From assembly GCA_029250925.1 (NCBI GenBank), contig JAQXEH010000049.1, positions 1 through 64,000 on the forward strand: DNA of 64,000 bases. The letters run 5' to 3'. Below are positions 32,153 through 51,646 of the stretch, piece after piece. The notes under the pieces were generated by a model. That model was not told the origin of the DNA and did no database searches. It saw only the letters and a list, made by a program, of their open reading frames with translations. The stretch's first letter is position 1, and each line of letters opens with the position of its first letter. A program made the position numbers and the translations under genes. This stretch comes from Hellea sp. Lineage in GTDB: Bacteria > Pseudomonadota > Alphaproteobacteria > Caulobacterales > Maricaulaceae.

Positions 32153-32228
<76 letters not shown>

Positions 32229-32833: not shown

Positions 32834-34084
32834 ATGACTTATTCGGCACTGAAAATATTTAAAGAGGCATTGACGGGTCATAAAGGCTGGAAACCAGTAT
32901 GGCGAAAATCTATCGCTCAAAATAGCTATGACATAATCATAATTGGTGGTGGAGGTCATGGATTAGCAACAGCCTTTTATTTAGCTAAACAGTTCAAACA
33001 AAAAAAAATTGCCGTTTTAGAAAAAGGATGGGTCGGCGGAGGAAATGTTGGCAGAAACACTACAATTATAAGATCTAACTATATGCTTAATAAGAACCAA
33101 GCTTTTTATGAATTTTCCTTAAAGCTATGGGAACGCATCGAAAAAGACATAAATTATAATGCAATGGTAAGCCAACGAGGTATTATTAATTTATTTCATT
33201 CAGATGCACAAAGGGACTCCTATATCCGCCGAGGAAACACCATGAGAATACACGGAACGGATGCTATCTTATTGAACCAAGACGAAGTAAAAAAGAAATA
33301 TCCTTTCCTTAATTATGATAATGCAAGATTTCCTATTAAAGGAGGGTTATGGCAACCACGTGGAGGAACAGTAAGGCACGATGCTGTTGCATGGGGTTAC
33401 GCGCATGCAGCAGATAAATATGGTGTTGATATTATCGAAAATTGTGAAGTAGTCGGCTTTGACATCGCCAATGGTAAATGTCTCGGCGTTAAAACAAATA
33501 AAGGCAATATAAAAGCTAATAAGATAGGCGTAGCAGTGGCGGGAAACAGCTCCAAAGTAATGAATATGGCTGGAATGAGGCTCCCTATAGAAAGTCATGT
33601 TCTTCAAGCATTTGTTAGTGAGGGATTAAAACCCATACTACCTGGCGTGATAACATATGGAGCTGGACATTTTTACGTTAGTCAGTCTGATAAAGGCGGG
33701 CTTGTTTTTGGTGGTGATATCGATGGCTATAATAGTTATGCGCAAAGGGGGAACCTACCCGTAGTCGAAGATGTATGTGAAGGAGGAGTTTCCCTTATGC
33801 CCATGATTGGAAAGGCTAGGCTGCTAAGGATGTGGGGAGGAATAATGGATATGTCTATGGATGGATCACCAATAATAGATAAAACACATATATCTGGTTT
33901 ATATTTTAATGGTGGTTGGTGCTACGGCGGATTTAAAGCGACTCCTGCAAGTGGATATAGCTTCGCTCATTTACTAGCAACCGACACGCATCATGAAGTT
34001 GCGAAAAACTATACACTAGATAGATTTAAATCTGGACTTACGATAGATGAAAAAGGACAAGGCGCTCAGCCTAATTTACATTAA
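32834..34084 (+). CDS. soxB: Sarcosine oxidase beta-subunit-like FAD/FMN oxidoreductase
   Basis: DIIIIGGGGHGLATAFYLAKQ; GGTVRHDAVAWGYAHAADKYGVDI (covalent-FMN His region); GGWCYGGFKATPASGYSFAHLLA. Start set at ATG 32834. Confidence 0.9.
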   Translation: MTYSALKIFKEALTGHKGWKPVWRKSIAQNSYDIIIIGGGGHGLATAFYLAKQFKQKKIAVLEKGWVGGGNVGRNTTIIRSNYMLNKNQAFYEFSLKLWERIEKDINYNAMVSQRGIINLFHSDAQRDSYIRRGNTMRIHGTDAILLNQDEVKKKYPFLNYDNARFPIKGGLWQPRGGTVRHDAVAWGYAHAADKYGVDIIENCEVVGFDIANGKCLGVKTNKGNIKANKIGVAVAGNSSKVMNMAGMRLPIESHVLQAFVSEGLKPILPGVITYGAGHFYVSQSDKGGLVFGGDIDGYNSYAQRGNLPVVEDVCEGGVSLMPMIGKARLLRMWGGIMDMSMDGSPIIDKTHISGLYFNGGWCYGGFKATPASGYSFAHLLATDTHHEVAKNYTLDRFKSGLTIDEKGQGAQPNLH

Positions 34085-34362
34085 TGATAATAAATCACCC
34101 ACTATTAGGACCAAGAGACTCTTCTGAATTCACATACCGTGGTGATGCAGTTTTATTAAATCGGCCAGATCCAAACTCTGAATCGTTATTGAATGATTAT
34201 TACGAGTACCAATACATTCGTAATAATACACACGGCTTTATGAAAGAGCTTTGGTTTCATGAACAAGGAGATAGATCTTGGCTTGTAGTTACAAGAAATA
34301 CCTTAACTCATGAAATAATAAAAGTAGAGCTAGCTTCAGAATATAAACGAGAAAACAAATGA
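34084..34362 (+). CDS. soxD: Sarcosine oxidase delta-subunit-like protein lacking most zinc ligands
   Basis: HPLLGPRDSSEFTYRGDAVLLNRPD...WFHEQGDRSWLVVTRNTLTHEI, collinear with SoxD; position between soxB and soxA. Confidence 0.85.
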   Translation: MIINHPLLGPRDSSEFTYRGDAVLLNRPDPNSESLLNDYYEYQYIRNNTHGFMKELWFHEQGDRSWLVVTRNTLTHEIIKVELASEYKRENK

Positions 34363-37184
34363 TTCTTGTTAATTATGATAAAATATTGAAGTTTCAATTC
34401 AATGGTAAGCATTATGAAGGTTACGAGGGTGACACTTTAGCATCAGCGCTACTTAGAGAAAATGTAAAAGTAGTTGGCCGAAGTTTTAAGTACCATAGGC
34501 CCAGAGGTATTTTCGGATCCGGTTCAGAGGAGCCAAATGCTCTTGTAAAACTTGAGGGTTCAAACACACATGAGCCAAATAGAAGGGCTACCTCTATTAA
34601 ATTATATGATGGGCTTAAGGCTAATTCACAGAATTACATCGGTAATGTTAAGTTTGATATTCTTGCATTAAACGATTATATACACCCATTTATTTCAGCT
34701 GGGTTTTATTACAAAACATTTATGTGGCCAAAATCATTTTGGGAAAAAGTCTATGAACCAATAATTAGACGTGCAGCAGGTCTCGGAACACTATCCACGG
34801 AACCCGATCCAGATAGATATGATAAAGGTTACCTGCATTGTGAGTTGTTAATTGTTGGATCTGGCCCAGCAGGTTTGAAAATGGCCCTTGATGCATCAAG
34901 GAATGGTAAAAAAGTAATTCTTGTTGATGAAGATTTCATTATGGGCGGACAGCTTCTATCAAATGAAATAGATATAAATGGAAGTTCGTCCCTACAGTGG
35001 GTAGAGCAGACACTTAGTGAACTCAGAAATTCTTCGAATGTTAGAATTATGACACGCACATCAGTTTATGGAGTTTACGATCATGGTATCTATGGAGCAT
35101 TGGAAACTGTTACTGATGAAATTGAAAGACCAGGAGCCAGACAAATTTTATGGCGTATATATGCAAATAAAAGTGTCTTAGCGTCAGGAGCCACGGAACG
35201 GCCGATTGCATTCCCAAATAATGACAGGCCTGGGGTTATGCTTGCTAGTGCAGTTCAAACATATAACAAAAGGTTTGATGTTAAGTGTGGAGATAATATA
35301 TCATTATTTACTAACAATAGCGGTGCTAATTTAAGTAAAATATCAAACCTTATCGATACCAGAGATGGCTCACACATAGTCAATGTCCATGGAAGAAATC
35401 TGATTAGAAGCATTACGCTTAATTCTGGCAAAAAAATAAATTCAGATTGTTTGGCAGTATCAGGAGGGTGGAACCCCAACTTGCAACTAACATGCCACAA
35501 AAGAGGTAGACCAAAATGGAATGAAAAGCTTTCCTGCTTTGTTCCAGACAACTCAAATTTACCGAATAATATGTATGTAATTGGATCAGCAAATGGTTCT
35601 TTTTCAACACAAAGTGTTTTCAACGATGTATCAGATTTATCTGAGCAACTAGGTTATCGAATTACAGAAAAAATTAAAACAGAGGATAACCCCCTTAACT
35701 TAAAACCCTTTTGGTTTGTAAAAAGTAAAAAAAGAAGTTGGGTTGATTTTCAAAATGATGTCACCGTTAAGGATATAACTTTGGCTCATCAAGAAGGGTT
35801 TTCATCTGTTGAGCATGTAAAACGATATACAACACTAGGCATGGCGACCGATCAGGGCAAAACCTCCAATGTAATAGGACTCGCTGTGCTTGCTGATGCA
35901 ACAAATAAAACTATTCCTGAAACTGGAACAACTATTTTCCGACCACCTTATACCCCCATATCTATCGGGGCTTTTGCTGGCGCTCATAAAGGTAAACACT
36001 TCAAACCAATTCGCCTAACACCAAGCCATGAGTTTGCAAGTGAAAATGGAGCAACTTTTGTTGATACAGGCTACTGGAAAAGAGCTCAGTGGTTTTCTCA
36101 AGATAAAGAAGTCACATGGCGTGACTCAGTGGACAGAGAAGTTTTGATGACTAGAAATTCTGTTGGAATTTGTGACGTATCGACATTAGGAAAAATAGAC
36201 ATTCAAGGTAAAGATGCAGGCAAGTTTTTAAATAAAATATATATCAATACATTTAGCACATTAAAAGTAGGTAAATGTAGATATGGTTTAATGTTGCGCG
36301 AAGATGGCATTGCTATGGACGATGGCACATCAGCAAGATTATCAGAAACCCATTATATTATGACAACAACAACAGCAAAAGCTGGTAGTGTCTATTCACA
36401 TTTAGAATTTTGTCGGCAAGTTTTGTTTCCAAACATGGATGTACACATTATATCAACTACAGATCAATGGGCACAATTTTCAATTGCAGGACCAAATGCT
36501 CGAAACCTTTTAAGTAAAATAATTGACCCAAGTTTCAACATATCTAATGAAACATTTCCCTATATGGCGTGTGCAGAAATAACTATTTGTTCAGGAGTCA
36601 GAGCGAGAATATTTCGTCTCTCATTTTCTGGAGAACTTGCCTATGAAATATCTGTTCCCTCACGTTATGGCGATGCATTAATACGTAAGCTAATATCGGC
36701 AGGTAAAGAGTTTAACGTTACTATGTACGGCACAGAAGCTTTAGGAGTAATGCGTATTGAAAAAGGGCATGCAGCGGGTAATGAATTAGATGGTCGTAAC
36801 ACACCAGTAAACCTCGGGCTTAGCGGACTAATGGCAAAGAAAAAAGATTATATTGGAAAAACTCTTTCATCTCGTGAAAAACTTTCTGGAAATGAAACTA
36901 TGGTTGGTTTTTTATCAGTTAATCCTTCAGACAAACTTACTAACGGATCCCACTTTGTGAATATAGGTGATAAAATATTACCTGAAAATGATCAGGGGCA
37001 TATGAGCAGTGTAGCTTATTCTCCAATTCTCGAACGCTATATTGGAATTGGTTTTTTAAAAAATGGCAAAGATAGATATGACGAAACCTTGAAAGCGATT
37101 GATTTTTTACAAAATAATCATGTTGAAGTTAAAGTAGTAAGCCCTCACTTCATAGATCCGAATGGAGACCGTCTACGTGCCTAG
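34359..37184 (+). CDS. soxA: Sarcosine oxidase alpha-subunit-like protein
   Basis: GDTLASALLRENVKVVGRSFKYHRPRGIFGSGSEEPNALV; LIVGSGPAGLKMALDASRNGKKVILVDED; TTLGMATDQGKTSNVIGLAV; C-terminal GCV_T domain. Confidence 0.92.
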   Translation: MILVNYDKILKFQFNGKHYEGYEGDTLASALLRENVKVVGRSFKYHRPRGIFGSGSEEPNALVKLEGSNTHEPNRRATSIKLYDGLKANSQNYIGNVKFDILALNDYIHPFISAGFYYKTFMWPKSFWEKVYEPIIRRAAGLGTLSTEPDPDRYDKGYLHCELLIVGSGPAGLKMALDASRNGKKVILVDEDFIMGGQLLSNEIDINGSSSLQWVEQTLSELRNSSNVRIMTRTSVYGVYDHGIYGALETVTDEIERPGARQILWRIYANKSVLASGATERPIAFPNNDRPGVMLASAVQTYNKRFDVKCGDNISLFTNNSGANLSKISNLIDTRDGSHIVNVHGRNLIRSITLNSGKKINSDCLAVSGGWNPNLQLTCHKRGRPKWNEKLSCFVPDNSNLPNNMYVIGSANGSFSTQSVFNDVSDLSEQLGYRITEKIKTEDNPLNLKPFWFVKSKKRSWVDFQNDVTVKDITLAHQEGFSSVEHVKRYTTLGMATDQGKTSNVIGLAVLADATNKTIPETGTTIFRPPYTPISIGAFAGAHKGKHFKPIRLTPSHEFASENGATFVDTGYWKRAQWFSQDKEVTWRDSVDREVLMTRNSVGICDVSTLGKIDIQGKDAGKFLNKIYINTFSTLKVGKCRYGLMLREDGIAMDDGTSARLSETHYIMTTTTAKAGSVYSHLEFCRQVLFPNMDVHIISTTDQWAQFSIAGPNARNLLSKIIDPSFNISNETFPYMACAEITICSGVRARIFRLSFSGELAYEISVPSRYGDALIRKLISAGKEFNVTMYGTEALGVMRIEKGHAAGNELDGRNTPVNLGLSGLMAKKKDYIGKTLSSREKLSGNETMVGFLSVNPSDKLTNGSHFVNIGDKILPENDQGHMSSVAYSPILERYIGIGFLKNGKDRYDETLKAIDFLQNNHVEVKVVSPHFIDPNGDRLRA

Positions 37185-37758
37185 TTTAAACAAAAAAACT
37201 GCAATTAATAAGTATAAAAAAACATTTAAAAACATTGAAATATATGAAGGATACCCAGAAGAAATTATATCTTTATCAATCTCATTAAATGATGATGAGG
37301 CATTTAATATAAAATTTAAAAATATATTTGGTATATATCCACCAAAACCAAACGAGATGAAAGACTTTAAAGATGGCCAAGTTTTATGGTCAGGACAAGG
37401 TCAGTATTTTTTATTTATGAATACTGACGACCAATATCTAGATACACGCATAGCAAAAGAATTTGATGGAACCGCCTATTCCACTCTTCAATCCGATGCG
37501 TGGGCAACAATAATAATTGAAGGATCAGAAATTTTTAAATTACTGGAACGAACAATTCCATTAGACCTATGTAATGCACAAGATTATTATGCATCAAGAA
37601 CAAGTAGTTTTCATGTTTCAGTTATAGTTGTCAAACTTGATAAAAATAAAGTAAAAATAATTACTCCAAGAACCTCATCAAATTCGTTTCTAGAGGCATT
37701 AGTACAAACCGCGGAAAACGTATCACTCCCCTGCCCCAAGTCTGGAGGATTCAGTTGA
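37162..37758 (+). CDS. soxG: Sarcosine oxidase gamma-subunit-like protein
   Basis: GQVLWSGQGQYFLF, TAYSTLQSDAWATIIIEGSEIFKLLERTIPLDL; follows soxA. Confidence 0.75.
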   Translation: METVYVPSLNKKTAINKYKKTFKNIEIYEGYPEEIISLSISLNDDEAFNIKFKNIFGIYPPKPNEMKDFKDGQVLWSGQGQYFLFMNTDDQYLDTRIAKEFDGTAYSTLQSDAWATIIIEGSEIFKLLERTIPLDLCNAQDYYASRTSSFHVSVIVVKLDKNKVKIITPRTSSNSFLEALVQTAENVSLPCPKSGGFS

Positions 37759-38424
37759 TGGTACCAAAATACGATCAGCGATTAGATTTAATTTTTCATA
37801 ATTCAACATTGAAATACTTAGACCATTATTCAATGCCACCTCATAAAATGATTTTTGTTTAATCGAATCAATCCTAGGTTCATGGTTCTTGATATGGGAC
37901 ATATCAATTAGGTCCTCATGTTTAGAGCATGTCCATTCAATTTTCTTACAACTTAAAGCGCTATATATTATTGGATAAGAGCTTCCAGGAAAAATAAAAG
38001 CTGTAAACTTATCAGTTATTAAATGAGATGAAAGGTTATTGTTAAAAGCGCTTCCTAAGTAACCAATGAGTGCATAAGGATCGTTTGCATTAATAATAGC
38101 AACTTTTGTAATACCATAATTTTCAGTCTCAGAAAAAACAAAATCGCAAATCAAATGTGCATTTGTAAATAAACTACCACCACAGCAATCAATAGTTATA
38201 ATTTCTTTCGTTATGCAAGGCGGTGGTAAATATATATTTTTAACTGCATCAAGTTCAGGAAGTTTTTCTATTAATTTATTTATTCCCGAATGACCATGAG
38301 ATTCAAGCCAAAATACAGTTTGAGCCATTTCTTGATAATCATGTTCATGACCATATACCGCTTCAAAAACTCGAGAAAGTAACGAGAGAAGTTCGTTAAA
38401 CGAGATATTAATTAAGTTTTTCAC
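37723..38424 (-). CDS. DUF3726-like uncharacterised protein
   Basis: INISFNELLSLLSRVFEAVYGHEHDYQEMAQTVFWLESHGHSG resembles the DUF3726 N-terminal pattern. GTG at 38424 overlaps the upstream stop; ORF track start is 38475. 3' end overlaps soxG by 36 bp. Confidence 0.6.
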   Translation of the reverse strand: MKNLINISFNELLSLLSRVFEAVYGHEHDYQEMAQTVFWLESHGHSGINKLIEKLPELDAVKNIYLPPPCITKEIITIDCCGGSLFTNAHLICDFVFSETENYGITKVAIINANDPYALIGYLGSAFNNNLSSHLITDKFTAFIFPGSSYPIIYSALSCKKIEWTCSKHEDLIDMSHIKNHEPRIDSIKQKSFYEVALNNGLSISMLNYEKLNLIADRILVPSTESSRLGAGE

Positions 38425-40129
38425 TAGACTTAGGCCTGATAGGAAAACACCAAGTATCATTGTATTCATTACCAATATCAGAAACTAAAGGCGCTCCTTG
38501 AAACATAGTATTTCTAACCCACTTCTTTGAACGGGGATCAAATTTACCAACTCCAAAAAAAGAAAGTTTACAACGCAGTAAATGGATTGGCAAAACATCA
38601 GCATCAAGAAGATTAGCTCTAATTTCTCCATATTGGGTCAACCCCATCGTCTGAATTCGGCGAATGATATAACGTAAATGTGGCCGAGAAAAGGCAAAAT
38701 GAGCAACTGTGATTGATGTATTACTACCCTCAATTTCGCATATCTCGTCAAAACAACTTCTCACATCCCTAGCAATGCACATCATCATTTCTTTTTCAAT
38801 GCCGGAGTCTAGAGACTTTTTACCAAGACGTGGTTCTTGTTTTTCTTCCGACCTGTACCAAAAAGTTTCTGTAGATGAGCTCTTGGTGAAATCATATCTC
38901 AAAGCCCATTTGTAATTTTTTTCAATTAAGGATTTCAGCGTATTAAGTTTCATCATCGGTTGCATTCGATAATTCTCATCTATATTTAATTCACTTTCTA
39001 AGTCCAATATAAATTTCGCATAAACCTCTGTTAAAATTGCGTTTATTAACTCTTGAGTTTCAACATGATAATTTTGAGATGCATGATCAATCAATTCCTG
39101 CCAGTTAACAAGTGTTTCATTATTAGCTTTAATCCACTCTAAACATTTATTTACTTCATTAACCGCACGATTATTTAGCACATTTTGTTCAGGATTATCC
39201 GTTGATATTTCATCTAAATGTTGAGCTGCTTTCATGATTAAACATTCTAAATTACCCAGGCTATCCCTATCGGGTGATTTATATTGTATAATACGAGCTA
39301 AAGATGTCTCCCTCACTTCTATCCAATTAGCGATTAACATGGGGTGCTTTATCAAATATGGTGCCATACCTAAACCAGTAGCATTACCAATTCCTATATA
39401 ACGTTTAATTCCATCATCTAGCTCTACAGCAGCTTCAGGAGACCTACCCCTAGCAACCCAATTGGCTAATTCGAGACTGAAATGCCTTATCATATAACAA
39501 GAAAACATCTCAGCTGAAAAAGGTTTTGCAAAATCAACGTACTTTTTACGCAAATTATCCCAATCAGACATCCCAAATTTACCGCTTCCATAAACAGCAG
39601 TTGTTCTGAATATGTAACCAACCTTTGCTATTTTATCCAGATCTGGTTGTTTTCCATTGGATAAACAATCAATGACATATTCAAAATTACGCATACTTTT
39701 GTTTGCACGCGATAATACTAAACATTTACTATCAACACGTCCTTTTTCTTGCAAAGGGACATTTTTTCTGAGAAATTCTAATCTATCCTGATCAATTTGA
39801 CCTTCACATAAAGTGACTGTCATGTCCCAATCTTCCGCAATTACCCTATCACTTCTTTTACTATCAGATAATTTTTTCGAAAATATAACATAGCTGTAAA
39901 CAGCATTTGGCGTTGTAATTTCATACACAACCTCCCCAAAACCTTCTTCATCTAAATTGAAAATAGTGCCATTAATTTCCCACATTTCACTCATTACTCG
40001 CCTAAGCAAGCAACGCATAAAACTCAGTGGATATGGGTAGAGGCACCCCAGCCTAGGTAATTCCATGACTGTTTTAGGGTTTCGCATAGGTAAATCAGTA
40101 TTTTTACTTAAAGGTTTGAGCTCAGCCAT
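38408..40129 (-). CDS. Conserved-looking protein of unknown function (~573 aa)
   Basis: Long ORF; ATG at 40129 (MAELKPLSKNTD) lies in ATGGCTGA overlapping the stop of the M19-like gene; ORF track start is 40156. No family recognised. Confidence 0.65.
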   Translation of the reverse strand: MAELKPLSKNTDLPMRNPKTVMELPRLGCLYPYPLSFMRCLLRRVMSEMWEINGTIFNLDEEGFGEVVYEITTPNAVYSYVIFSKKLSDSKRSDRVIAEDWDMTVTLCEGQIDQDRLEFLRKNVPLQEKGRVDSKCLVLSRANKSMRNFEYVIDCLSNGKQPDLDKIAKVGYIFRTTAVYGSGKFGMSDWDNLRKKYVDFAKPFSAEMFSCYMIRHFSLELANWVARGRSPEAAVELDDGIKRYIGIGNATGLGMAPYLIKHPMLIANWIEVRETSLARIIQYKSPDRDSLGNLECLIMKAAQHLDEISTDNPEQNVLNNRAVNEVNKCLEWIKANNETLVNWQELIDHASQNYHVETQELINAILTEVYAKFILDLESELNIDENYRMQPMMKLNTLKSLIEKNYKWALRYDFTKSSSTETFWYRSEEKQEPRLGKKSLDSGIEKEMMMCIARDVRSCFDEICEIEGSNTSITVAHFAFSRPHLRYIIRRIQTMGLTQYGEIRANLLDADVLPIHLLRCKLSFFGVGKFDPRSKKWVRNTMFQGAPLVSDIGNEYNDTWCFPIRPKSSEKLN

Positions 40130-41105
40130 TTTTTGTCGCTCCAAAACTATTGTCAAAAAAGTTTAACCAATTCAAACCCATAATTTTCTCAACATCAGCA
40201 TTAGACATACCCTTAGAAATTAATCCCTCTGAAATATTACTAAAATCACGACTGCTTTTAAACCATTCTGGTTGCTCAGGCCAATCAGAGTTCTCAGAAC
40301 TGCCTTCGCCAAAATCTGGTTTAAATGTCCATGTTCCACTGCGCATCCATTCTAGTGTATCATAACCCCAATTTTGACAGAGATCAGAACCAATACCAAT
40401 ATTATCAATTCCCATTAATTCAGCAGTATCTAAAATCATTCCGCAGAAATCATCTAGTGTGCAACTTGAATTATTGTTTAAGTGAAATGGGTACATCGAA
40501 AACCCAAGCATCCCTTTGGACTCCCCTAAAGCTTTAAGAACATCATTAGATTTATTTCTTAATGCATGATGCCATTTAGATGGATTGGCATGAGTAATAG
40601 CTATGGGTCTTTCAGAATAGTCAATTGCCTGTAAGGTTGATTTCTCTGCACTATGAGACATATCTATAACCATTCCCACACGATTCATTTCCTTTATAAC
40701 CTCTCTTCCAAACCGTGTAACCCCGCTATCAGCATTTTCATAGCATCCTGTAGCCAATAAACTTTGGTTGTTATAGGAGAGCTGCATAATTCGAACGCCT
40801 TGCTCATGAAGCATTTCTACTTTTCTTAAATCATCTTCGATAGGAGAACAGTTTTGAAACCCTAATATAATACCAACTTTATTTAAGGCTTCCGCTTTGC
40901 GAATATCATTACCTGTGCGGACGGGCATAATTAAATCTGAATTCTCGCGAAAACGACGTCGCCAATCACCTATATTGGCTAATGTGGACTCGGTGTTTTC
41001 CCAATAACTAATTGTAACATGTATAGCGTTTACGCCTCCATCGCGTGCCTCGGCAAATAAGTCACGGTTCCAGTTTACGTATTGCAGTGCATCTATAATC
41101 AACAT
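40122..41105 (-). CDS. M19 (renal/membrane dipeptidase) family homologue with divergent metal site
   Basis: IDMSHSAEKSTLQAIDYSERPIAITHANP, GIGSDLCQNWG retain M19 signatures; N-terminal IDALQYVNWNRDLF lacks HxD. Confidence 0.85.
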   Translation of the reverse strand: MLIIDALQYVNWNRDLFAEARDGGVNAIHVTISYWENTESTLANIGDWRRRFRENSDLIMPVRTGNDIRKAEALNKVGIILGFQNCSPIEDDLRKVEMLHEQGVRIMQLSYNNQSLLATGCYENADSGVTRFGREVIKEMNRVGMVIDMSHSAEKSTLQAIDYSERPIAITHANPSKWHHALRNKSNDVLKALGESKGMLGFSMYPFHLNNNSSCTLDDFCGMILDTAELMGIDNIGIGSDLCQNWGYDTLEWMRSGTWTFKPDFGEGSSENSDWPEQPEWFKSSRDFSNISEGLISKGMSNADVEKIMGLNWLNFFDNSFGATKNG

Positions 41106-41108
41106 AAA

Positions 41109-42542
41109 TTAACCTGGGTTAGTGTAAGAGGTTTTCATAATTGTATAAAAATCTTTCGCATGCTCACCTTGTTCACGCGGACCGTAACTTGATGCATTTC
41201 TTCCGCCAAACGGCACATGATAATCCAAACCTGCAGTAGCTAGGTTGACAAGAACACTTCCAAATTTAGCATTGCGCTTGTAATGTTGAGCTTCTTTTAC
41301 AGAATTTGTAATGATAGATGCAGATAAACCATATTCAGTGTCATTTGCTAATGAAAGGCCCTCTTCATAACTATCTACACGCATTATGCAGGTCATTGGT
41401 CCAAAAACTTCTTCTTTATTCACACGCATTTGATTATTAGTATCTGTGAAAATAGTAGGCGCTAAGTAATATCCTTCATGCTCAGATTCAGCTCTTCCGC
41501 CACCGGTTAGAAGTGTTCCACCTTCAGATTTAGCGAGATCCATGTAGGATAAAATTTTATTCATTTGTCCTTCTGATACCACTGGGCCAAGCTCAGTACC
41601 TTCAGCTAGAGCATGCCCAACCTTTTTAAGTTCAGCGGCTTTTACAAATTTTTCAACAAACTCATCATGTATTGAATCTTCTACAATCAAACGCGAAGAG
41701 GCCGTACACTTTTGACCAGATGCTCCAAAAGCGCCGTGTATGGATTGAGCTACAGCCAAGTCTATGTCTGCATTTTTTGTAATTACTATTGGGTTTTTAC
41801 TTCCCATCTCGCATTGAACTCGGGCCATGTTTTTAACAGCTGCCAAAGCAATTTTTTTACCGGTGGGGACTGATCCTGTAAATGATATAGCATCTACTTT
41901 TGAGGCAGATAACGCCGCGCCAACATCACCAGCACCCTGTACCATGTTAAAAACACCCTTGGGCAAGTGCTTATCAAGTACTTCTGCTAACGAGTGTGCT
42001 GTTGCTGGAGTTAATTCAGAGGGCTTTAATACAACTGTGTTTCCATAGGCTAATGCTGGTCCCATTTTCCAAGCTGCTATAGCTATCGGAAAATTCCAAG
42101 GAGTAATTAATCCAGCTACTCCAATCGGCTCTCTAGATATCTCAATATCAATATTGGGACGTACTGATGCTGCACTTTCTCCAATTTGACGCAAACATTC
42201 AGCAGCATAATATTGGTAAAATTCACCCGCCCGAAAGACTTCGCCCCTACCCTCAGCGAATGGTTTTCCTTCTTCCGAAGATAGAATCTTTCCTATCTCG
42301 TCCGAGCGGTCCATAAGTTCCTGTCCTATAGCATAAAGAATATTTTTTTTATCCTCAAGCTTAACAGCGCTCCAAAGTGGCTGGGCATGACGGGCAGACG
42401 ATACAGCATCATCTATTTGACTGGAATTAGCACTTATCAGGTGACCAAGCACTTGTGACGATTCTGATGGATTTATGTTGGCTATTTCATTTCCAACATT
42501 GTGCCATTCGCCGTTGATGAGACTTCCATATATATTTGTCAT
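41109..42542 (-). CDS. NAD(P)-dependent aldehyde dehydrogenase (succinate-/alpha-ketoglutarate-semialdehyde dehydrogenase-like)
   Basis: ITPWNFPIAIAAWKMGPALAYGNTVVLKPSELTP, SFTGSVPTGKKIA, CEMGSKNPIVI, GQKCTASSRLIV catalytic Cys. Confidence 0.92.
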   Translation of the reverse strand: MTNIYGSLINGEWHNVGNEIANINPSESSQVLGHLISANSSQIDDAVSSARHAQPLWSAVKLEDKKNILYAIGQELMDRSDEIGKILSSEEGKPFAEGRGEVFRAGEFYQYYAAECLRQIGESAASVRPNIDIEISREPIGVAGLITPWNFPIAIAAWKMGPALAYGNTVVLKPSELTPATAHSLAEVLDKHLPKGVFNMVQGAGDVGAALSASKVDAISFTGSVPTGKKIALAAVKNMARVQCEMGSKNPIVITKNADIDLAVAQSIHGAFGASGQKCTASSRLIVEDSIHDEFVEKFVKAAELKKVGHALAEGTELGPVVSEGQMNKILSYMDLAKSEGGTLLTGGGRAESEHEGYYLAPTIFTDTNNQMRVNKEEVFGPMTCIMRVDSYEEGLSLANDTEYGLSASIITNSVKEAQHYKRNAKFGSVLVNLATAGLDYHVPFGGRNASSYGPREQGEHAKDFYTIMKTSYTNPG

Positions 42543-42591
42543 AAATTTTCCTTATTGCACACACTAACTGTGTATAATGTAATACTCTAGG

Positions 42592-43593
42592 TTAAAGAGA
42601 GCTTATCTTATCAAGTAATATATCTGCCACCATAACACCGGACTTATTACTCTCAATTCTGTTCTTATGTCTTCTATCACTTGGTAATCTTGCGTCCTTT
42701 TGTTCTTTAATTTTATCAAACAATTTTTCAGAGTGATCAGACCAATTATCTGCATCACCAAGTAAATTTGGGTCTATAGCAATCATAAGCTCACCACCCT
42801 GAGGAGGTCCACCGTCAGCATTGTCGCGGACTGCCGCTTCAAAGCTAAAACTCTCCCCAATCAATCCACCCGCTAATAATTCAACCATCATGGCAATAGA
42901 TGATCCCTTATGTCCGCCAAAAGCTAATAATGCTCCCTTCAAGACTTCATTAGGATCGTTTGAAGGTATTCCGTTTATATCAACACCTACACCATCAGGA
43001 AGCTTATGACCTTCACGAGCCGCTAACATAACTTCGCCTCGCGCCATTACAGAGCTAGCTTGATCAAAAACCATAGGAAAGCTATTTTTTCGGGGCCATC
43101 CGAATGCAATTGGATTTGTTCCGTAAAGAGCTTTAGTGCCACCCGCTGGAATCACTGCCGGCTTATAAGATGTACAAGCAAATGCCACCAAGCCAGCTTT
43201 CGCGATTGGCTCTACTTCAGTCCAAAGCGCTGCAAAATGATGAATGCCAACTAATGACATAACTGCAATTCCACATTTATTTGCGGCCTCAATTAAGTGA
43301 TTACGGCCTTGCTGCAAAGCATACGGAGCAAAACCATTATGGCCATTAACTTTTACAACAGCAGGCGCTAAACTTTCTATGGTAGGTCTTGCCTTACCAT
43401 TTACTTTACCAGATTTAAGTGTTGCAACATAACCTGGCAACCTCATCAATCCATGCGAATGGCAACCAGCTGCTTCAGCAGATTCAATTACATTAGCGAC
43501 AGCTGATGCATTTTCATTGTCACAACCATATTTTAATAGAACTTTAGTTGCTAAATTATTGATTTCATTTAATTTTAAATTTGTATTAGACAT
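42592..43593 (-). CDS. Ldh (malate/L-lactate/ureidoglycolate) family oxidoreductase, DpkA-like
   Basis: AEAAGCHSHGLMRLPGYVATLKSGKVNGKARP; GIHHFAALWTEVEPIAKAGLVAFACTSYKP; GTNPIAFGWPR; GGHKGSSIAMMVELLAG. Confidence 0.88.
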   Translation of the reverse strand: MSNTNLKLNEINNLATKVLLKYGCDNENASAVANVIESAEAAGCHSHGLMRLPGYVATLKSGKVNGKARPTIESLAPAVVKVNGHNGFAPYALQQGRNHLIEAANKCGIAVMSLVGIHHFAALWTEVEPIAKAGLVAFACTSYKPAVIPAGGTKALYGTNPIAFGWPRKNSFPMVFDQASSVMARGEVMLAAREGHKLPDGVGVDINGIPSNDPNEVLKGALLAFGGHKGSSIAMMVELLAGGLIGESFSFEAAVRDNADGGPPQGGELMIAIDPNLLGDADNWSDHSEKLFDKIKEQKDARLPSDRRHKNRIESNKSGVMVADILLDKISSL

Positions 43594-43602
43594 ATTTTTT
43601 TC

Positions 43603-45597
43603 CTACAGTGAACCATAATTTTTTAATATATTTTTACCCAAGGCTACTTCGAGTGGCATCAAAAAGTCCTCATAGTTACGCCATTGATCAACACCGCTGC
43701 TATAAATAGGCTGTCGAACTTGTTCCGAGCTCGCCGTACGAACAGAACGCTTGGTTTTATAAAAGTCCAAACATTCTTTTTCAAAAGGCAACTCGAGAAA
43801 TTTAAATAATTTTCTTACTTCAGTTTCTGTATTAGAGACTACATTCTCATATTGAACTTTATAAATCTTACCTGGCAGCACCTTATTCCAGTGACTCATT
43901 AAGTTTATATAATCTTTATAATAAGTACCAATTTCGTCGAGACCGTAAGTGAATTCCTGACCGCTAGCAAATAATTGTTTAAATCCCGAAAAACAACATG
44001 CCATAGGGTTCCTACGCGCATCAATTATCTTAGCGTTGGGCAATATTAGACTTATAAGACCTATATGACGAAAATTATTAGGCATCTTATCAATAAAATA
44101 AGGAAGTGGTCTTCGGTGCACCATAGTATCAGATATATAGGCGTCACCAAATTTTTTCATTTGTTCACCTGACAATTCACTGAGACAAGCAGGATATTTC
44201 GGCTCCTCGTTCTTTTTTCGTCGACCACCAAGTTCATAAGCAATCGCAGCTATATTTGGTAGCTCATATGTTCCTTCAATTTTAGAGTGTGATGCAAGAA
44301 TTTGCTCTATTAATGTAGAACCCGCTCTTGGCAACCCTACTATAAATATAGGGTCTTTTGCTAAAGACCCCATATCAATTTTGGAATTAAATAATTTTTT
44401 ATCACAAACCTTTTTTTGAGCTTCAAATCTTTGGCTCATCAAAGCTGGCGTATAATCTAACTGACTTTTTCTAAGGTCGTTACCTCTAGTAAAGCAATTA
44501 AAGGCATCCTTATATAAGCTATTATCTTCATAGTGTTTACCAAGCGCAAAACAAAAATGAGCTTGGTCATCAATACTTGTGTTAGGGTCATCCATATAAA
44601 CTTTCATTGTATCAACTTCAGTATCTAGAAATTTATAAGTTTTCAGATTTGCTAAACTCCAATATGCGTCACCAAAATTATTTCTCGCTGCATAAGCGCT
44701 GCGATAAGACAGTATAGCATCCTCAGTCTTACCTATGGTTTTCAAGGCATGCCCGTAGACTAGGAAAAGGTCTGATCTATTTTTAACTTTGGACAGTGCT
44801 TCTTCGTAGATCAATAGTGCCTGATCATAATTACCTACTGCCACTGATTGATTCGCAAAGCCAATCTTATAGTCAAGGTTATTGGGTTCACTTTTCAGTA
44901 ATAGAGTTGCTTGGTTTAATGCCTCTTTATACTTTTGCCGTCGGTAAAGGACATTCATATAATCAAATCTAGCTAAATTATTCTCAGGCTCAAATTCTAC
45001 AGCGCTTTCCAAAATAAATTCAGCATCATCTAACACATTAGTTTTAACGCCTAAGTCAGCTAATAACCGCATCCCCTCTACATGAGTTGGGTTTTCTATC
45101 ATAAATGAACGGCAAACATTTTCCGCTTTCAGATAACGTTTTTCTGCCATCATGTTTCGAACTGTTAATAACTTGGATGGCAGTTTAGATAATTTTTTAT
45201 ACGATTCTAAAGCAGAGTTTGCCTCTATTAGGTCACCCCGCTTACCAAGTAATCCAGCCAATGTTCTTAAACTCGTAGTTAGTGAGTTATTATGAATTAA
45301 AGCCTTACGGTATTCACTTATAGCCTTATCATTGTCACCTAAGTGGAAGTATATATTACCTTTTTCCTGATAAGCCCGTCCAAAGTCAGGCCTAATTTTT
45401 ATAATTTTCTCAAGGTTTTCTAGTGAAATATCGAAATTTCCATTAATTCGTTGAGTGACTGCCAACGCATATAGTGCGTCGCTATTTTCTGGGTCTTTCT
45501 TTACGAGATTTTCAGCCATTTCTTTAGCTTTTATAATTTCCCGTGACTGAACTAGCTCCATTATATTGTCTACAGAAACCATTATTGTTTCACTCAT
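43603..45597 (-). CDS. TPR-repeat protein with C-terminal sulfotransferase domain
   Basis: Multiple N-terminal TPRs; PAPS loop DPIFIVGLPRAGSTLIEQILASHSKIEGTYELPN; 3'-phosphate region NAKIIDARRNPMACCFSGFKQLF. Confidence 0.88.
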   Translation of the reverse strand: MSETIMVSVDNIMELVQSREIIKAKEMAENLVKKDPENSDALYALAVTQRINGNFDISLENLEKIIKIRPDFGRAYQEKGNIYFHLGDNDKAISEYRKALIHNNSLTTSLRTLAGLLGKRGDLIEANSALESYKKLSKLPSKLLTVRNMMAEKRYLKAENVCRSFMIENPTHVEGMRLLADLGVKTNVLDDAEFILESAVEFEPENNLARFDYMNVLYRRQKYKEALNQATLLLKSEPNNLDYKIGFANQSVAVGNYDQALLIYEEALSKVKNRSDLFLVYGHALKTIGKTEDAILSYRSAYAARNNFGDAYWSLANLKTYKFLDTEVDTMKVYMDDPNTSIDDQAHFCFALGKHYEDNSLYKDAFNCFTRGNDLRKSQLDYTPALMSQRFEAQKKVCDKKLFNSKIDMGSLAKDPIFIVGLPRAGSTLIEQILASHSKIEGTYELPNIAAIAYELGGRRKKNEEPKYPACLSELSGEQMKKFGDAYISDTMVHRRPLPYFIDKMPNNFRHIGLISLILPNAKIIDARRNPMACCFSGFKQLFASGQEFTYGLDEIGTYYKDYINLMSHWNKVLPGKIYKVQYENVVSNTETEVRKLFKFLELPFEKECLDFYKTKRSVRTASSEQVRQPIYSSGVDQWRNYEDFLMPLEVALGKNILKNYGSL

Positions 45598-45694: not shown

Positions 45695-48382
45695 TTAATT
45701 AAAATCGTAACGTACTCTAACACCGACTGTCCTTGGTCGGTTAGTAGTGGTACGTTGGATAAAGTCTTGTCTATTAATATTTAGTTGAGCTCGAGTGTTT
45801 GTGATATTTGTCGCAAACAATTCTGCTTTCCAACCCATATCTGAGTCACCAATACCAATAGCTCCATCCAGTATGAAGTATTTTTTCTGGTCCAATTGAG
45901 GCTCTGTAACTGTATCTACAAGAGAGTTCACTGATTTACCTGCGTACTTACCACCTAGCTGCCAGAATGCATCATAATCGTTGATAGCCCACTCATATCT
46001 AGCTCTACCACTGAGCTGGACTTTAGGAGTTAACGGCAATGATGAACCAGCATCAGCTAATAAGAAATCAAGAGCTGGGTCGATCCTAACTAGTTCAGTA
46101 TCATTAAATGATCCAGCCGCATAAAGAGTAAGATTATCCGTTGGAGCATAAGCTATGTCCCCTTCAAATCCTTTAATCTCAGCATCTCCGCCATTAACAA
46201 TAAATGTTAATACACTTACGTTTTGAGAGTCGAACTGAGAAACCTGTATGTCTTTCCAGTCAGTTTTATAAAATGAACCATTAAAACGCATTCTTCCGTC
46301 TAGAAGAGTTGCTTTCCAACCTAACTCCATACTTTCAAACGTGTCTGAGTTGAAAGCAAATGGAAGGCAAAATCCTGGGAAACCATTTCCGCGGGGGTTA
46401 ATTGCAACGGATTCACCGCATTCAAGTCCTGCTGTATTGGTGTTATTTGCTCCAGGAACATATAAGCCCTCTCCTGCTTGACTACCGATAGCGGTAGCCG
46501 CTGCTCGGTTAACTCCAGGCGGACGATATCCATCAGACCAAGAAGCGAATACTAGTAAATCATCAGTAGGAGTCCAAGAACCTGTGAATTTCAATAGAAC
46601 ATCATCGCGTTTCAGAGGAGTTAAGTCATTATAAACACCATCATATGATCGACCGCCTGTAACACTTGGTCTTATATCGTTTGTTGGGTCATTATCATCC
46701 ACGAACAAAGGACGGTTACCATATCTCCAAGCACCTATTCCGGTAAAATCGTATTCCAAATCATAGTAACGAGCACCTGCTTCAAGGTTAAACTGGTCTG
46801 TAACATCCCAATTTACTGAACCATAGAGGGCCATTTGCTTTTCAGACCGGTCATTATCATTACGGAACTGAGTAGCGTCATTTAATTCAAAAGTATTTAA
46901 CGTCTCTTGAGGAAAATCTGAGCGTGTAGTCACATCAATTGCCGCAAAGCCTAGGTCTGCAGGCGCCTGGTAGTTAAAACGTCCAATATGTTCGATTTTG
47001 AAATCTTCGTAGTAACCACCAACAGTGAAGTTAACAGGACCATCAAAATCTGATACTACGCGAAACTCTTGAGTAAATCGCGTGTTCTTATTTGTGATAT
47101 GTGCACTGTTAGATGGATCCCCACATTCAATAACTTCTGGGTCACCGCCAATTGTCGGGTCCAAACCATATACAGTTGAAGCATTGCTTCCTACACCGTT
47201 ATAATAAGAACCAACTAAATATTCACATGCATACCCTGGAATAAATCCACCAATATTTGTGTAACCAGTATAATCAATTTTGGCTTCAACATCACGGTCT
47301 AAATAAGCACCCGTGTATACTAAATCTAACTGACCCATGCGGCCATTAACAGTCCATGCCGTCTGATTGAAAGCATCATTATTGGAATCTTCCTGAAAAC
47401 GAGATACGTTTAAATCGCCTTTGGTTGGATCAAAATCCCAAACACCAGTTGTATCCAAAGTCTGACGCGAATGCTGTAGTAATACATCCCAATCATCATT
47501 TATGTTATATTTTGCACCAATTCTCATACCCGTATAAGTCGCATCGTTGAAATCATCTTCAACAAGCGCAGCGTTATTAGCTGTTGCAAAGTTAACCGGC
47601 ACAGTTACTCCGCCAGCCGGTACGACAGTTCCGTTAACAAAAGTAGTGCCTCCGGCGAATGTAACACTGCTTGCAGGAAAAGCTGGGTTTACGGCATTAC
47701 TTGCTGTAAACGTTCCTGCGACGTTATCAATGTAGCCGCCTTTTTTATCAGTGTAGAATACACCACGTAAAGCTAGCTTATCTTCAATTACAGGCACATT
47801 AAGAACCGCTTCTAAAGCCGTGCTATCTTCGCCGCCTTTAGTAAATGCATAGCTAGCAGATGCGCTAGCGGAATATTCATTCATAACTGGCTTATTTGTA
47901 ATAAGGCGAACAGTACCAGCCATTGAGCTTGCACCGTATAGTGTTCCTTGAGGTCCAGGAAGTACTTCGATACGTTCCATATCAGCAATATAGACATCTA
48001 AATTACGACCGCCTTGAGTTACAGGCTGTTCATCAAGATATAGAGAAACGTTCGGGGCTGAACCCTGTGATTCAGCAACTGTTATGTTAATCGCATCAAT
48101 AGCTGCTCCGCGAATATATAATTCGTTTTGACCTGGTCCTCTACCACCTGCATTTACACTGGGAAGGTATTTCACATAATCTTCAAAGCTATCAATATTT
48201 TGCTCTTCTAATTGTTCCGCATTAAAAGCCTGAACTGCTATAGCAACGTCTTGCATACTTTGCGTTCTTTTGGTTGCTGTAACAACAACTTCATCATCAA
48301 GCTGAGCAAAAGCTGGTGACGATAAACCGACAGCAGCAATTGCACCGATAGCAGTGCAGCTTAGTAGATTTAGTTTCTTCAT
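45695..48382 (-). CDS. TonB-dependent outer membrane receptor
   Basis: Signal peptide, DDEVVVTATKR TonB-box region, plug (YLPSVNAGGRGPGQNELYIRGAA; IEVLPGPQGTLYGASSMAGTVRLITNKP), C-terminal GVRVRYDFN. Confidence 0.93.
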   Translation of the reverse strand: MKKLNLLSCTAIGAIAAVGLSSPAFAQLDDEVVVTATKRTQSMQDVAIAVQAFNAEQLEEQNIDSFEDYVKYLPSVNAGGRGPGQNELYIRGAAIDAINITVAESQGSAPNVSLYLDEQPVTQGGRNLDVYIADMERIEVLPGPQGTLYGASSMAGTVRLITNKPVMNEYSASASASYAFTKGGEDSTALEAVLNVPVIEDKLALRGVFYTDKKGGYIDNVAGTFTASNAVNPAFPASSVTFAGGTTFVNGTVVPAGGVTVPVNFATANNAALVEDDFNDATYTGMRIGAKYNINDDWDVLLQHSRQTLDTTGVWDFDPTKGDLNVSRFQEDSNNDAFNQTAWTVNGRMGQLDLVYTGAYLDRDVEAKIDYTGYTNIGGFIPGYACEYLVGSYYNGVGSNASTVYGLDPTIGGDPEVIECGDPSNSAHITNKNTRFTQEFRVVSDFDGPVNFTVGGYYEDFKIEHIGRFNYQAPADLGFAAIDVTTRSDFPQETLNTFELNDATQFRNDNDRSEKQMALYGSVNWDVTDQFNLEAGARYYDLEYDFTGIGAWRYGNRPLFVDDNDPTNDIRPSVTGGRSYDGVYNDLTPLKRDDVLLKFTGSWTPTDDLLVFASWSDGYRPPGVNRAAATAIGSQAGEGLYVPGANNTNTAGLECGESVAINPRGNGFPGFCLPFAFNSDTFESMELGWKATLLDGRMRFNGSFYKTDWKDIQVSQFDSQNVSVLTFIVNGGDAEIKGFEGDIAYAPTDNLTLYAAGSFNDTELVRIDPALDFLLADAGSSLPLTPKVQLSGRARYEWAINDYDAFWQLGGKYAGKSVNSLVDTVTEPQLDQKKYFILDGAIGIGDSDMGWKAELFATNITNTRAQLNINRQDFIQRTTTNRPRTVGVRVRYDFN

Positions 48383-48541: not shown

Positions 48542-50143
48542 TTAACCTATTTTTCTAAATAACAACGACCTTATTAGCGCAACTGACATAAACGCCATTA
48601 CAAGTGAAAAAGGTAGAGCACCAATTATCATAACAGACTTTAACGCCTCCATACCACCGCTAGCCAAAAGAGCGCCGGTTGTAGATGTCAAAATTAAACC
48701 CCAGATAACAATATGCTTGATATGTTTTTTTTCTGAGCTACCGGCTGATGATATAGTGTTTATGATAAGTATAGCTGAATCAGCGGAGGTGACTAAGTAT
48801 GTTAGGAGTAGTACGACGATTAAAAGAGACATTAAAACAGAAAAACTGGGTGATAATATTAAATTTATTGTCTCATAAAGCTGTGCGGATATATCTGCAT
48901 TAACTATCGCTCCTTTTGCGATGCCAACAAGCTCTAAATTTATAGCAGTGCCCCCAACAAGAGCAAACCAAGTAAGGGCCATTAATGTTGGGACCAACAT
49001 TGCTCCAAATATATACTCCCTTACAGTCCTTCCTCTTGAGACTCTGGCCAAAAACAAACCAACAAACGGCGCAAACCCAATCCACCATGCCCAATAAAAC
49101 ACAGACCAAGAAGACTGCCAAGAAGCTAATGCTTGTTCAGTTTCGTTACCATTTGCATTCCAAACGGATAGCGACATAGCAGGAAGAGCAAGTAAGTAAT
49201 CCCATATAGTTATGAAAAAAGACTTGAATGCAAAAAGAGTAGCACCAAAAAAAACAAAGAAAGATAATAATAAAATTGAAAAAATCATATTTATATTTGA
49301 TAGCCACTTAATACCTCTTTTAACACCAGAGGCCGCAGACAGTGTTGACGCAAGCATAATTATTACAAGTGCAATTAATTGAGCATTCAAAGTTGGCTTT
49401 CCATCAGCGTCACTTATCCATTCAGCCCCAGAGATATTGAATATACCAGCTGCAAACTGAGAAACCCCAAAGCCAATAGTAACACCAACACCAGAAATTG
49501 TGGCTATAATAGCCACTATATCAACAATATGTCCAAAAGTTCCATTTAAGCGATTTCCAAAAATAGGAAACAATCCAGAACGTATTGTTAATGGCAACCC
49601 CTTGTTGTAAGCAAAGTAGCCCAGCGATAAGCCCACAATACCGTAGCATGCCCAAGGCGTTAGCGCATAGTGAAACGCTGCCCACTTATATGCATATCTA
49701 ACATTTTCTGCTGATTGCCCCTCAACCAGACCCTTTATTACATCAGGATTATTTGCAAAATGAAAAATTGGTTCCGCAGTTGAGTAAGTCATCATACCTA
49801 CCCCAATGCCCGCCCCAAACATCATAGAAAACCAAGAAAAGTTTGAAAACTCCGGCTTTTCTTCAATGTGACCTAACCTAACAGCACCCGATTTAGGTAT
49901 TATTGCAAGGCTCAAACAGACTATTACAAAAAAGAAAGTAATATACATATACCAAGCACTAAAGTAGTGCACGGTATCAGTTTGAATTACAGATAAAATT
50001 TCGTTAGCATTTTGTGGCTTCAAAACGACCCAAATTGTAAATATGATTAAAGCGATCATTGCACCAAATGTAACCACTTTGTTAAAACCAGAATAGTATC
50101 CAGAATTAGCTACTTTAATTTCCAATTGTTTTGGTTTCAGCAT
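48542..50143 (-). CDS. BCCT family transporter (betaine/carnitine/choline type)
   Basis: FSWFSMMFGAGIGVGMMTYSTAEPIFHFANNP; SVFYWAWWIGFAPFVGLFLARVSRGRTVREY. Confidence 0.93.
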   Translation of the reverse strand: MLKPKQLEIKVANSGYYSGFNKVVTFGAMIALIIFTIWVVLKPQNANEILSVIQTDTVHYFSAWYMYITFFFVIVCLSLAIIPKSGAVRLGHIEEKPEFSNFSWFSMMFGAGIGVGMMTYSTAEPIFHFANNPDVIKGLVEGQSAENVRYAYKWAAFHYALTPWACYGIVGLSLGYFAYNKGLPLTIRSGLFPIFGNRLNGTFGHIVDIVAIIATISGVGVTIGFGVSQFAAGIFNISGAEWISDADGKPTLNAQLIALVIIMLASTLSAASGVKRGIKWLSNINMIFSILLLSFFVFFGATLFAFKSFFITIWDYLLALPAMSLSVWNANGNETEQALASWQSSWSVFYWAWWIGFAPFVGLFLARVSRGRTVREYIFGAMLVPTLMALTWFALVGGTAINLELVGIAKGAIVNADISAQLYETINLILSPSFSVLMSLLIVVLLLTYLVTSADSAILIINTISSAGSSEKKHIKHIVIWGLILTSTTGALLASGGMEALKSVMIIGALPFSLVMAFMSVALIRSLLFRKIG

Positions 50144-50179: not shown

Positions 50180-51646
50180 TTACTTAGCCATATTAATTTG
50201 AGCAGGCTTCATCCAGCATGCGTGAAAACCAACAGGTATTGCGTGTGGCAAACTAATTCTCGCCACTGGCCCTCTAGATATGTTTTGGGCGTCAAAAATT
50301 TGAAGCTCTTGTTTTTGTAATTTATTATTCCACATAAAACAAATAACATAACCATGGTCTTCCGATGCTTGGTTATCCGCTGGTGCAAACCAAGGTTCAC
50401 TGTACCAGCAATGCGCAGGACCATCACTCCAGCTGCCTAAGCTTTCACCAGAATCAGTGTCAAACTTTCTTAAACCTGTCCAGTGTAAAGTCTTCGGGTT
50501 ATGATCGACTAGATAGGCATATTGACTATGCATTCCTGTTAGCTGAGTGTCGTAACTTGGAAACTCACAATTGTAATCAGTATTTAAACACTCTTCTTGG
50601 CATTCACCCGATTTTAAGTTCATCCTGTATCTCCAAAGACGTGCTTCCATACCTAGGTTAGCAATCATCTTTGCGGTTTTTATCTCATTAATTTCCCCGT
50701 TAGTGTCTTTCGTTGGCATGAAACGACAAGCCGTCATTACAATCTCATCTCCTTCCTCCCAACAATTAATAACGTGATAAAGAAAACAAGGAGTGAATTC
50801 GAACCACTTGATTTCTTCAGATTTTCCATATCTAGGAATAACACCAAATCGGGAGTTCATGGATGAATTAAATCTAATCTTATGCCTGCCCGCCGCTAAA
50901 GCGTCTTCATCGTGGTATACAGGCAAATCATGCAATATAGAATAATTTTGCGTTATTCCCATATCGTGCGGCAATCTATTTCCAGGCAGTACAATGGGGA
51001 CATGATGAATGAGTTTCCCTCCTTTGTCGATTACACCATAAGCCATAAAAGGGGCATAATCGAAATAATCAAAAAACATCATTTCACCAGTAACCTCGTC
51101 AACTTTCGGGTGGGCCGACATACCTTGCCCAGGAGAACGTGAATAATCTTTTGATCCAATTGTATCCAAAGTTACCGGGTCTAAAAAATAAGATTTTCCT
51201 GCGAGGTACCACGTTGCAACAGCATTTCCAGCATGCCCAATAACATCTGTATTAGCTGCATCTGCCATAGGCCTATCTTTTCTACCTTTAAGTGAATTCA
51301 TAATTCCCCAGTGCGACTCTTGACCTTGGCGATCATTCTCCAGCCACCCTTCAGTCCGGATCCATTTATTGCGGTAAGTTAGTTTCCCATTTTCGAAGTG
51401 AGCAGAATGTATCATTCCATCGCCATCAAAAGGATGATAGGAACCTTTTGGTTTAAAACGCGGATTCGGTCCATTTCGTAAGTAGACGCCATTAAGATCT
51501 TTGGGAATTTTTCCTTCTACTGGAAGGTCAGTTAAGCACTCTTCACTCAAAACCGGAGCAAATACACCAGTAAGCATTGGTCCATGTGAATTCCCGAATG
51601 GAGCTTTATCATGATTAAAAGGTGAGTTCATAGTGTTCCCTAACAT
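50180..51646 (-). CDS. Carotenoid oxygenase (RPE65/CCD/lignostilbene dioxygenase) family protein
   Basis: DLNGVYLRNGPNPRFKPKGSYHPFDGDGMIHSAHF; apparent iron His ligands in SAHPKVD, ILHDLPV, LYHVINCWE, GFHACW. Confidence 0.92.
   Translation of the reverse strand: MLGNTMNSPFNHDKAPFGNSHGPMLTGVFAPVLSEECLTDLPVEGKIPKDLNGVYLRNGPNPRFKPKGSYHPFDGDGMIHSAHFENGKLTYRNKWIRTEGWLENDRQGQESHWGIMNSLKGRKDRPMADAANTDVIGHAGNAVATWYLAGKSYFLDPVTLDTIGSKDYSRSPGQGMSAHPKVDEVTGEMMFFDYFDYAPFMAYGVIDKGGKLIHHVPIVLPGNRLPHDMGITQNYSILHDLPVYHDEDALAAGRHKIRFNSSMNSRFGVIPRYGKSEEIKWFEFTPCFLYHVINCWEEGDEIVMTACRFMPTKDTNGEINEIKTAKMIANLGMEARLWRYRMNLKSGECQEECLNTDYNCEFPSYDTQLTGMHSQYAYLVDHNPKTLHWTGLRKFDTDSGESLGSWSDGPAHCWYSEPWFAPADNQASEDHGYVICFMWNNKLQKQELQIFDAQNISRGPVARISLPHAIPVGFHACWMKPAQINMAK

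Follow-up and report, generated by a model that had tools for sequence, protein, structure and literature searches.

Among the nitrogen-containing metabolites of marine phytoplankton, homarine (N-methylpicolinate) is an abundant one. In trigonelline degradation by TgnABCDE, an N-methylpyridinium carboxylate is cleaved between C5 and C6, which involves an N-formyl intermediate, an aldehyde dehydrogenase and a hydrolase. For homarine itself, a 2026 study (Ferrer-Gonzalez et al., Nat Microbiol 11:1531, doi 10.1038/s41564-026-02313-7) reportedly presents a pathway that includes N-methylglutamate dehydrogenase (Mgd) and is described as conserved in environmental bacteria; its operon reportedly carries the name homABCDER. 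Here we analyse a 64,000-nucleotide stretch (the window) from the alphaproteobacterium Hellea sp., part of a 1.84-Mb draft genome that is 93% complete, in which a four-gene sox-like operon converges on a six-gene operon that includes a 573-amino-acid (573-aa) protein with no family match. The region is probably (roughly 0.78) a homarine catabolic island that would end at glutamate, with its gene content read from sequence and its substrate taken from a citation. PMC13390433 reports that Mgd takes part in homarine catabolism and cites a “conserved pathway”, and Ruegeria pomeroyi clears homarine from medium within hours (PMC12817926).

All ten open reading frames predicted in the first-pass annotation are confirmed, and their coordinates, strands, gaps and overlaps agree with it. 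They are as follows.

32834..34084, + strand: mgdA-like (soxB-like) FAD/FMN subunit of a predicted N-methylglutamate dehydrogenase (TIGR01373, 643 bits; SoxB tree clade)
34084..34362, + strand: mgdB-like (soxD-like) small subunit (Pfam SoxD, E 2e-26)
34359..37184, + strand: mgdC-like (soxA-like) subunit with a GCV_T folate domain (TIGR01372, 1185 bits; Mgd clade in the SoxA tree)
37162..37758, + strand: mgdD-like (soxG-like) subunit (weak TIGR01375 match, E 9e-4; conserved position after soxA)
37723..38424, − strand: DUF3726 protein, 233 aa, GTG start; apparent shrunken Ldh_2-family paralogue and obligate partner of the 573-aa protein
38408..40129, − strand: 573-aa protein with no family match; proposed ring-opening subunit (alignments, AlphaFold2, fold search)
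40122..41105, − strand: M19-family amidohydrolase variant; proposed N-formyl amide hydrolase (Pfam, E 2e-76; active-site columns)
41109..42542, − strand: aldehyde dehydrogenase (ALDH), 2-oxoglutarate-semialdehyde-dehydrogenase-like (Pfam, E 6e-150; below equivalog cut-offs)
42592..43593, − strand: Ldh_2-family imine reductase, DpkA-like (Pfam, E 2e-98; nearest PDB structure)
43603..45597, − strand: TPR-sulfotransferase, an accessory gene in a TonB-type subset of operons (Pfam; conserved position)

Both operons are compact. On the plus strand, successive genes overlap by 1 bp (soxB/soxD), 4 bp (soxD/soxA) and 23 bp (soxA/soxG). On the minus strand, the TPR-sulfotransferase gene is followed after 9 bp by Ldh, then after 49 bp by ALDH and after 3 bp by M19, beyond which the genes overlap by 8 bp (M19/573-aa gene) and 17 bp (573-aa gene/DUF3726 gene). 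The soxG-like and DUF3726 genes meet in a 36-bp tail-to-tail overlap. SoxA and SoxB exceed the NCBIfam TIGR cut-offs and SoxD exceeds its Pfam cut-off; the M19, Aldedh and Ldh_2 Pfam matches are strong, and Pfam confirms the TPR-sulfotransferase. Gene content, linkage and the predicted Mgd identity are the parts of our reading that sequence supports.

The sox-like operon has four subunits in B-D-A-G order (the match of the gamma subunit is weak). Its family, domain composition and gene order are common to sarcosine oxidase SoxBDAG, but maximum-likelihood trees place its SoxB and SoxA with gmaS/dmm-linked Mgd, with supports of 98–100. The crystallised sarcosine oxidases 2gag and 1vrq lie outside this clade in the SoxB tree, the only one that holds PDB sequences, and glyA/sdaA-linked copies lie outside it in both the SoxB and SoxA trees. 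On these trees we reject a sarcosine oxidase identity for the operon; the supported assignment is to Mgd, with predicted activity on N-methylglutamate. The first-pass annotation had set these paralogues apart from true sarcosine oxidases, as the trees do, but had cast the complex as the entry oxidase; its grouping with Mgd would instead place it at a late step. Window SoxB shares ~75% identity with its core-linked counterparts in Ruegeria TM1040 and Aliiroseovarius (the core is defined below), 72% with a dmm-linked copy from Paracoccus yeei and 70% with a gmaS-linked one from Aminobacter. The dmm-regulator-soxBDAG order in P. yeei is the order named dmm-tmaR-mgdABCD for R. pomeroyi in PMC13390433. 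A second, distant SoxBA lineage also includes both gmaS-linked and core-linked members, so that the core is tied twice to N-methylglutamate-dehydrogenase-like enzymes. No gmaS match was found in the window genome (a 93% complete draft), which makes methylamine an unlikely source of N-methylglutamate and means that another source is needed. The window operon therefore shares subunit order and clade with gmaS/dmm-linked MgdABCD of the methylamine pathway, but would not be fed by methylamine through GmaS/Mgs.

Ldh, ALDH, M19, the 573-aa protein and DUF3726 form a five-gene core found next to betaine-type transporters in hundreds of bacteria. When 84,980 species genomes were scanned with the 573-aa alignment, at least 584 relatives turned up, and 168 plasmid records hold one as well. 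One locus labelled Hellea sp. encodes a 573-aa protein 92% identical to that of the window, and in a sister species (G020) the convergent layout is the same and the proteins are 79–96% identical. Recurrence in at least 584 public genome stretches and the shared layout in the sister species argue that this arrangement did not arise by chance. Neighbourhoods were sampled in 80 scanned loci, which are the closest relatives and form a biased, non-independent set, and were counted in the 56 loci flanked by 8 kb or more at both ends. All 56 hold the 573-aa gene together with the DUF3726 and M19 genes, with ALDH in 51, a LysR regulator in 47 and a betaine/carnitine/choline transporter (BCCT) in 43, which bears out the conserved linkage claimed in the first-pass annotation. 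A repeated annotated unit, LysR / ALDH-M19-573aa-DUF3726-Ldh / betaine ABC or BCCT transporter, is found in Aminobacter, Pararhizobium, Shinella, Aliiroseovarius and Ruegeria TM1040, and soxBDAG lies within the core cluster in Aliiroseovarius, Ruegeria TM1040 and another Shinella.

Across the active-site columns of ~100 relatives, the M19 variant has no HxD motif, has Gln in place of the bridging Glu in 96 of the 96 relatives with a residue there, and retains two His and a later Asp. Its nearest solved relative, 2i5g, was deposited as an amidohydrolase. An ordinary membrane dipeptidase was considered and rejected, as three of the five metal ligands of the binuclear site are missing; dipeptidase function is unlikely, and we propose that the protein may hydrolyse an amide via an altered metal site. 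The genome also holds another M19-family gene (L002, G000:C15:2393-3394), which is 23% identical to the first and has Gln at one conserved metal-site His. The ALDH scores below the 2-oxoglutarate-semialdehyde dehydrogenase equivalog cut-offs (497.5 versus 750 bits for NF052305, and 478.9 versus 770 bits for another model). Reductive methylamination of 2-oxo acids is one use to which DpkA has been put (PMC6237917). The window Ldh has the SHG, GTNP and GGHKG motifs and its best PDB match, also its closest solved relative, is a DpkA-type delta1-piperideine-2-carboxylate reductase (1wtj, E 2e-83); both belong to the imine-reductase class, but the DpkA substrate is a cyclic imine and that predicted for the window enzyme is an acyclic N-methyl-imine.

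Ldh enzymes of the DpkA type are imine reductases and RidA is an imine hydrolase. Among the 56 well-flanked loci, an Ldh gene is present in 13, RidA in 33 and both in none (Fisher 6e-7, kinship ignored). RidA loci are mostly gammaproteobacterial, and in the full set of loci Ldh also occurs in several gammaproteobacteria, such as HTCC2148, Marinomonas vulgaris and an Arenicella metagenome-assembled genome (MAG). Mutual replacement of Ldh and RidA across proteobacteria points to a shared N-methyl-imine/enamine intermediate. Sox genes stand beside 7 of the 13 Ldh loci versus 1 of the 43 others, and genome-wide, SoxB of the N-methylglutamate dehydrogenase type is present in 11 of 12 Ldh-type versus 5 of 20 RidA-type genomes (Fisher 6e-4), with SoxB class called by tree for the fetched loci and by identity for the remainder. 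The simplest inference is that Ldh would reduce the shared intermediate to N-methylglutamate, which then passes to Mgd, and that RidA would release 2-oxoglutarate and methylamine; two pathway endings are predicted accordingly.

Grouping of the sox-like operon with Mgd suggests N-methylglutamate as a late intermediate, and in combination with the 2026 report, as cited in PMC13390433, this points to homarine as the substrate. The carbon balance fits, with homarine (C7) equal to formate (C1) plus N-methylglutamate (C6), and it constrains the steps from ring opening to imine reduction (steps 2–5), for which order and chemistry are inferred. Our proposed route is modelled on trigonelline degradation. 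Homarine would be taken up by a BCCT carrier, perhaps following TonB-dependent import (step 1), and the 573-aa/DUF3726 pair would open the N-methylpyridinium ring by C5–C6 cleavage, which would turn C6 into an N-formyl group and C5 into an aldehyde (step 2). After such a cleavage, the remaining work calls for aldehyde oxidation, amide hydrolysis and imine reduction, activities that the core would supply: ALDH would oxidise the semialdehyde to the acid (step 3), the M19 variant would release the N-formyl group as formate to leave the enamine/N-methyl-imine of 2-oxoglutarate (step 4), and the DpkA-like Ldh would reduce this to N-methylglutamate (step 5). MgdABCD would finally yield glutamate and pass the C1 unit to folate (step 6). 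This route would follow the cleavage logic of TgnABCDE, but the window core has no TgnA/TgnB-type flavin monooxygenase, and the hydrolase and end product differ.

Catabolism of proline betaine or N-methylproline would likewise end at Mgd: N-methyl-pyrroline would be hydrolysed to N-methylglutamate semialdehyde, which ALDH would convert to N-methylglutamate for Mgd to turn into glutamate. Resemblance of the ALDH to semialdehyde dehydrogenases and the betaine-type ABC or BCCT transporters that accompany the core fit this idea, but it leaves the amidohydrolase, the imine reductase or RidA and the 573-aa/DUF3726 pair all without use, and neither a Rieske nor any other N-demethylase constantly adjoins the core, so that we regard it as quite improbable. 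A pipecolate or hydroxyproline pathway was set aside because its endpoint is not N-methylglutamate. The first-pass annotation was right to read the region as a single island for degrading a betaine-type, N-methylated compound via an imine and a semialdehyde, and its overall reading stands for the island, the linkage and the non-sarcosine Sox proteins. Its entry oxidase and claim to an undescribed system do not hold, and the substrates that it suggested (proline, hydroxyproline, stachydrine or pipecolate) are superseded by the N-methylglutamate intermediate and the homarine report cited in PMC13390433.

Pfam, NCBIfam and PDB sequence searches gave no match for the 573-aa protein. Its AlphaFold2 model is confident (pLDDT 89, pTM 0.91), and a comparison with PDB folds gave no match at E<=0.001, with the best listed query TM-scores at ~0.1. 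Among its near-invariant positions, Arg and Trp are frequent, Asp occurs three times, Glu four times and His once, and Cys is absent. The window DUF3726 protein scores 21.3 bits against PF12525 (Pfam cut-off 22.1), which 51 of 52 aligned members match. Its AlphaFold2 model (pLDDT 92) resembles Ldh_2-family dehydrogenases in a Foldseek search (E 6e-9, query TM 0.7), and 29 of the 52 aligned members have a Pfam Ldh_2 sequence match. The Ldh_2 motifs GTNP and HKG are absent from all 52 members and SHG is present in five, so the protein is probably not a dehydrogenase; from sequence and model, it appears to be a shrunken Ldh_2-family paralogue. In Poseidonibacter ostreae (Campylobacterota, L101 7916-10378), the two proteins are fused in one 821-aa reading frame, which suggests that they work as one enzyme, and the pair is the probable, predicted ring opener.

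Adjacent pairs at ~25–30% identity occur in Sinorhizobium meliloti, Alloyangia, Mesorhizobium, Bosea and the archaeon Natrinema. Two of them have M19 and Rid genes alongside and others have alpha/beta hydrolase genes, which points to a wider enzyme superfamily. The distant 573-aa/partner/M19 clusters of S. meliloti (L236) and Alloyangia (L238) also have an aminotransferase or GABA transaminase, succinate-semialdehyde dehydrogenase and RidA, and possibly serve the pathway of another N-heteroaromatic. Mesorhizobium (L239) and Bosea (L240) have pairs without M19, accompanied by alpha/beta hydrolase, ALDH, amino acid synthesis family genes and an ABC transporter. Such varied gene sets suggest that the superfamily probably handles several substrates. 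They also lend some weight to the idea that the window itself serves another N-methylated N-heteroaromatic or betaine that gives N-methyl-imine intermediates, such as trigonelline, given that M19, RidA, an aminotransferase and succinate-semialdehyde dehydrogenase accompany the pair in S. meliloti, with similar sets elsewhere. An Mgd endpoint, however, needs nitrogen on the alpha-carbon of the glutamate skeleton, an arrangement that picolinate provides but nicotinate lacks, and homarine is the compound named in the report cited in PMC13390433; another substrate for the window is unlikely. We propose tentatively that the pair may represent a new two-subunit enzyme class, with a non-PDB fold and no recognisable domain for flavin, haem or metal, that would open the rings of N-methylated heteroaromatics. 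Members in proteobacteria, Bacillota, Chloroflexota and haloarchaea would act on different ring compounds, and the steps downstream would be exchangeable (Ldh or RidA; M19 or alpha/beta hydrolase).

Several points weigh against the homarine assignment. The core enzymes have no recognisable oxygenase or flavin domain, so that step 2 is without mechanistic precedent. No LysR regulator match is present in the window, whereas LysR occurs in most homologous loci. The homarine system is known here only through its citation in PMC13390433, which makes a gene-by-gene match with the published operon a presumption. Direct mgd adjacency is limited to few genomes, and the core of other members of the window's family adjoins a sarcosine-type sox operon rather than mgd. 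These last two points would also fit unrelated neighbours, in which an Mgd operon for methylamine nitrogen and a peptide/amino-acid operon converge by accident. Co-occurrence in the family argues otherwise: SoxB with at least 75% identity (Mgd-type) is present in 19 of 21 genomes with the core versus 5 of 116 without it (Fisher 9e-17, kinship ignored) and, by genus, in 6 of 6 with the core versus 2 of 13 without it (hypergeometric ~0.001). Independent cases of linkage come from Ruegeria TM1040, Aliiroseovarius, Shinella and the single-cell genome of an alphaproteobacterium, and the window genome lacks gmaS, so that accidental convergence is very improbable. In this family there is commonly also a separate sox operon of the sarcosine type, frequently located directly behind the core; we take it as a neighbouring glycine-betaine function.

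Outside the window, L230 11421-18393 holds a soxBDA operon of the sarcosine type together with a gene resembling dimethylglycine dehydrogenase, and such a block lies directly behind a homarine-type core in related genomes. A few kb away on the same contig (L230 1-7530 = G000:C4:83001-90530), an apparent corrinoid methyltransferase cluster was read by eye, with trimethylamine-methyltransferase-like, corrinoid protein, methyltetrahydrofolate methyltransferase and iron-sulfur activator genes.

Two further genes lie upstream of the six-gene operon.

45695..48382, − strand: TonB-dependent receptor, a possible uptake gene (same placement in related operons)
48542..50143, − strand: BCCT transporter, a candidate for inner-membrane uptake (operon membership inferred from strand and distance only)

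A TonB receptor and TPR-sulfotransferase stand upstream of the core in the window, Hellea and its sister genomes, and Woeseiaceae and Porticoccaceae MAGs, and the position of the TPR-sulfotransferase between TonB receptor and Ldh is conserved in L032, L034, L035, L232 and L235. These genes are limited to a subset of operons and are probably linked to uptake. Compared with the homarine pathway, as cited in PMC13390433, the window has Mgd in common and a core that is likewise conserved in environmental bacteria. Five core genes, joined in most relatives by a LysR gene, also agree with the gene count in the name homABCDER. The window copy differs in the absence of a linked LysR gene and the presence of the TonB receptor and TPR-sulfotransferase genes. 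A tRNA-Phe gene at 32153-32228 (+ strand), ~600 bp upstream of the soxB-like gene, is a possible integration point for the island. On the upstream side, window positions 50180-63999 hold genes that by eye resemble carotenoid-oxygenase, nitronate-monooxygenase, two thiolases, tannase, a second TonB receptor and AMP-ligases, and look like a separate catabolic cluster.

The homarine system as a whole is already in the literature, and in that respect the locus can no longer be called undescribed. Elements that may be new are the pair with no known fold, its partner from the Ldh family and the switch between Ldh and RidA, but the 2026 homarine study could already cover them. The range of the core far exceeds marine alphaproteobacteria and takes in rhizobia, Burkholderiales, Vibrio, Marinobacter, Halomonas, Campylobacterota, Bacillota and SAR11-type genomes; more distant relatives occur in a haloarchaeon. 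Identifying the bacteria that use homarine matters for marine carbon and nitrogen flow.

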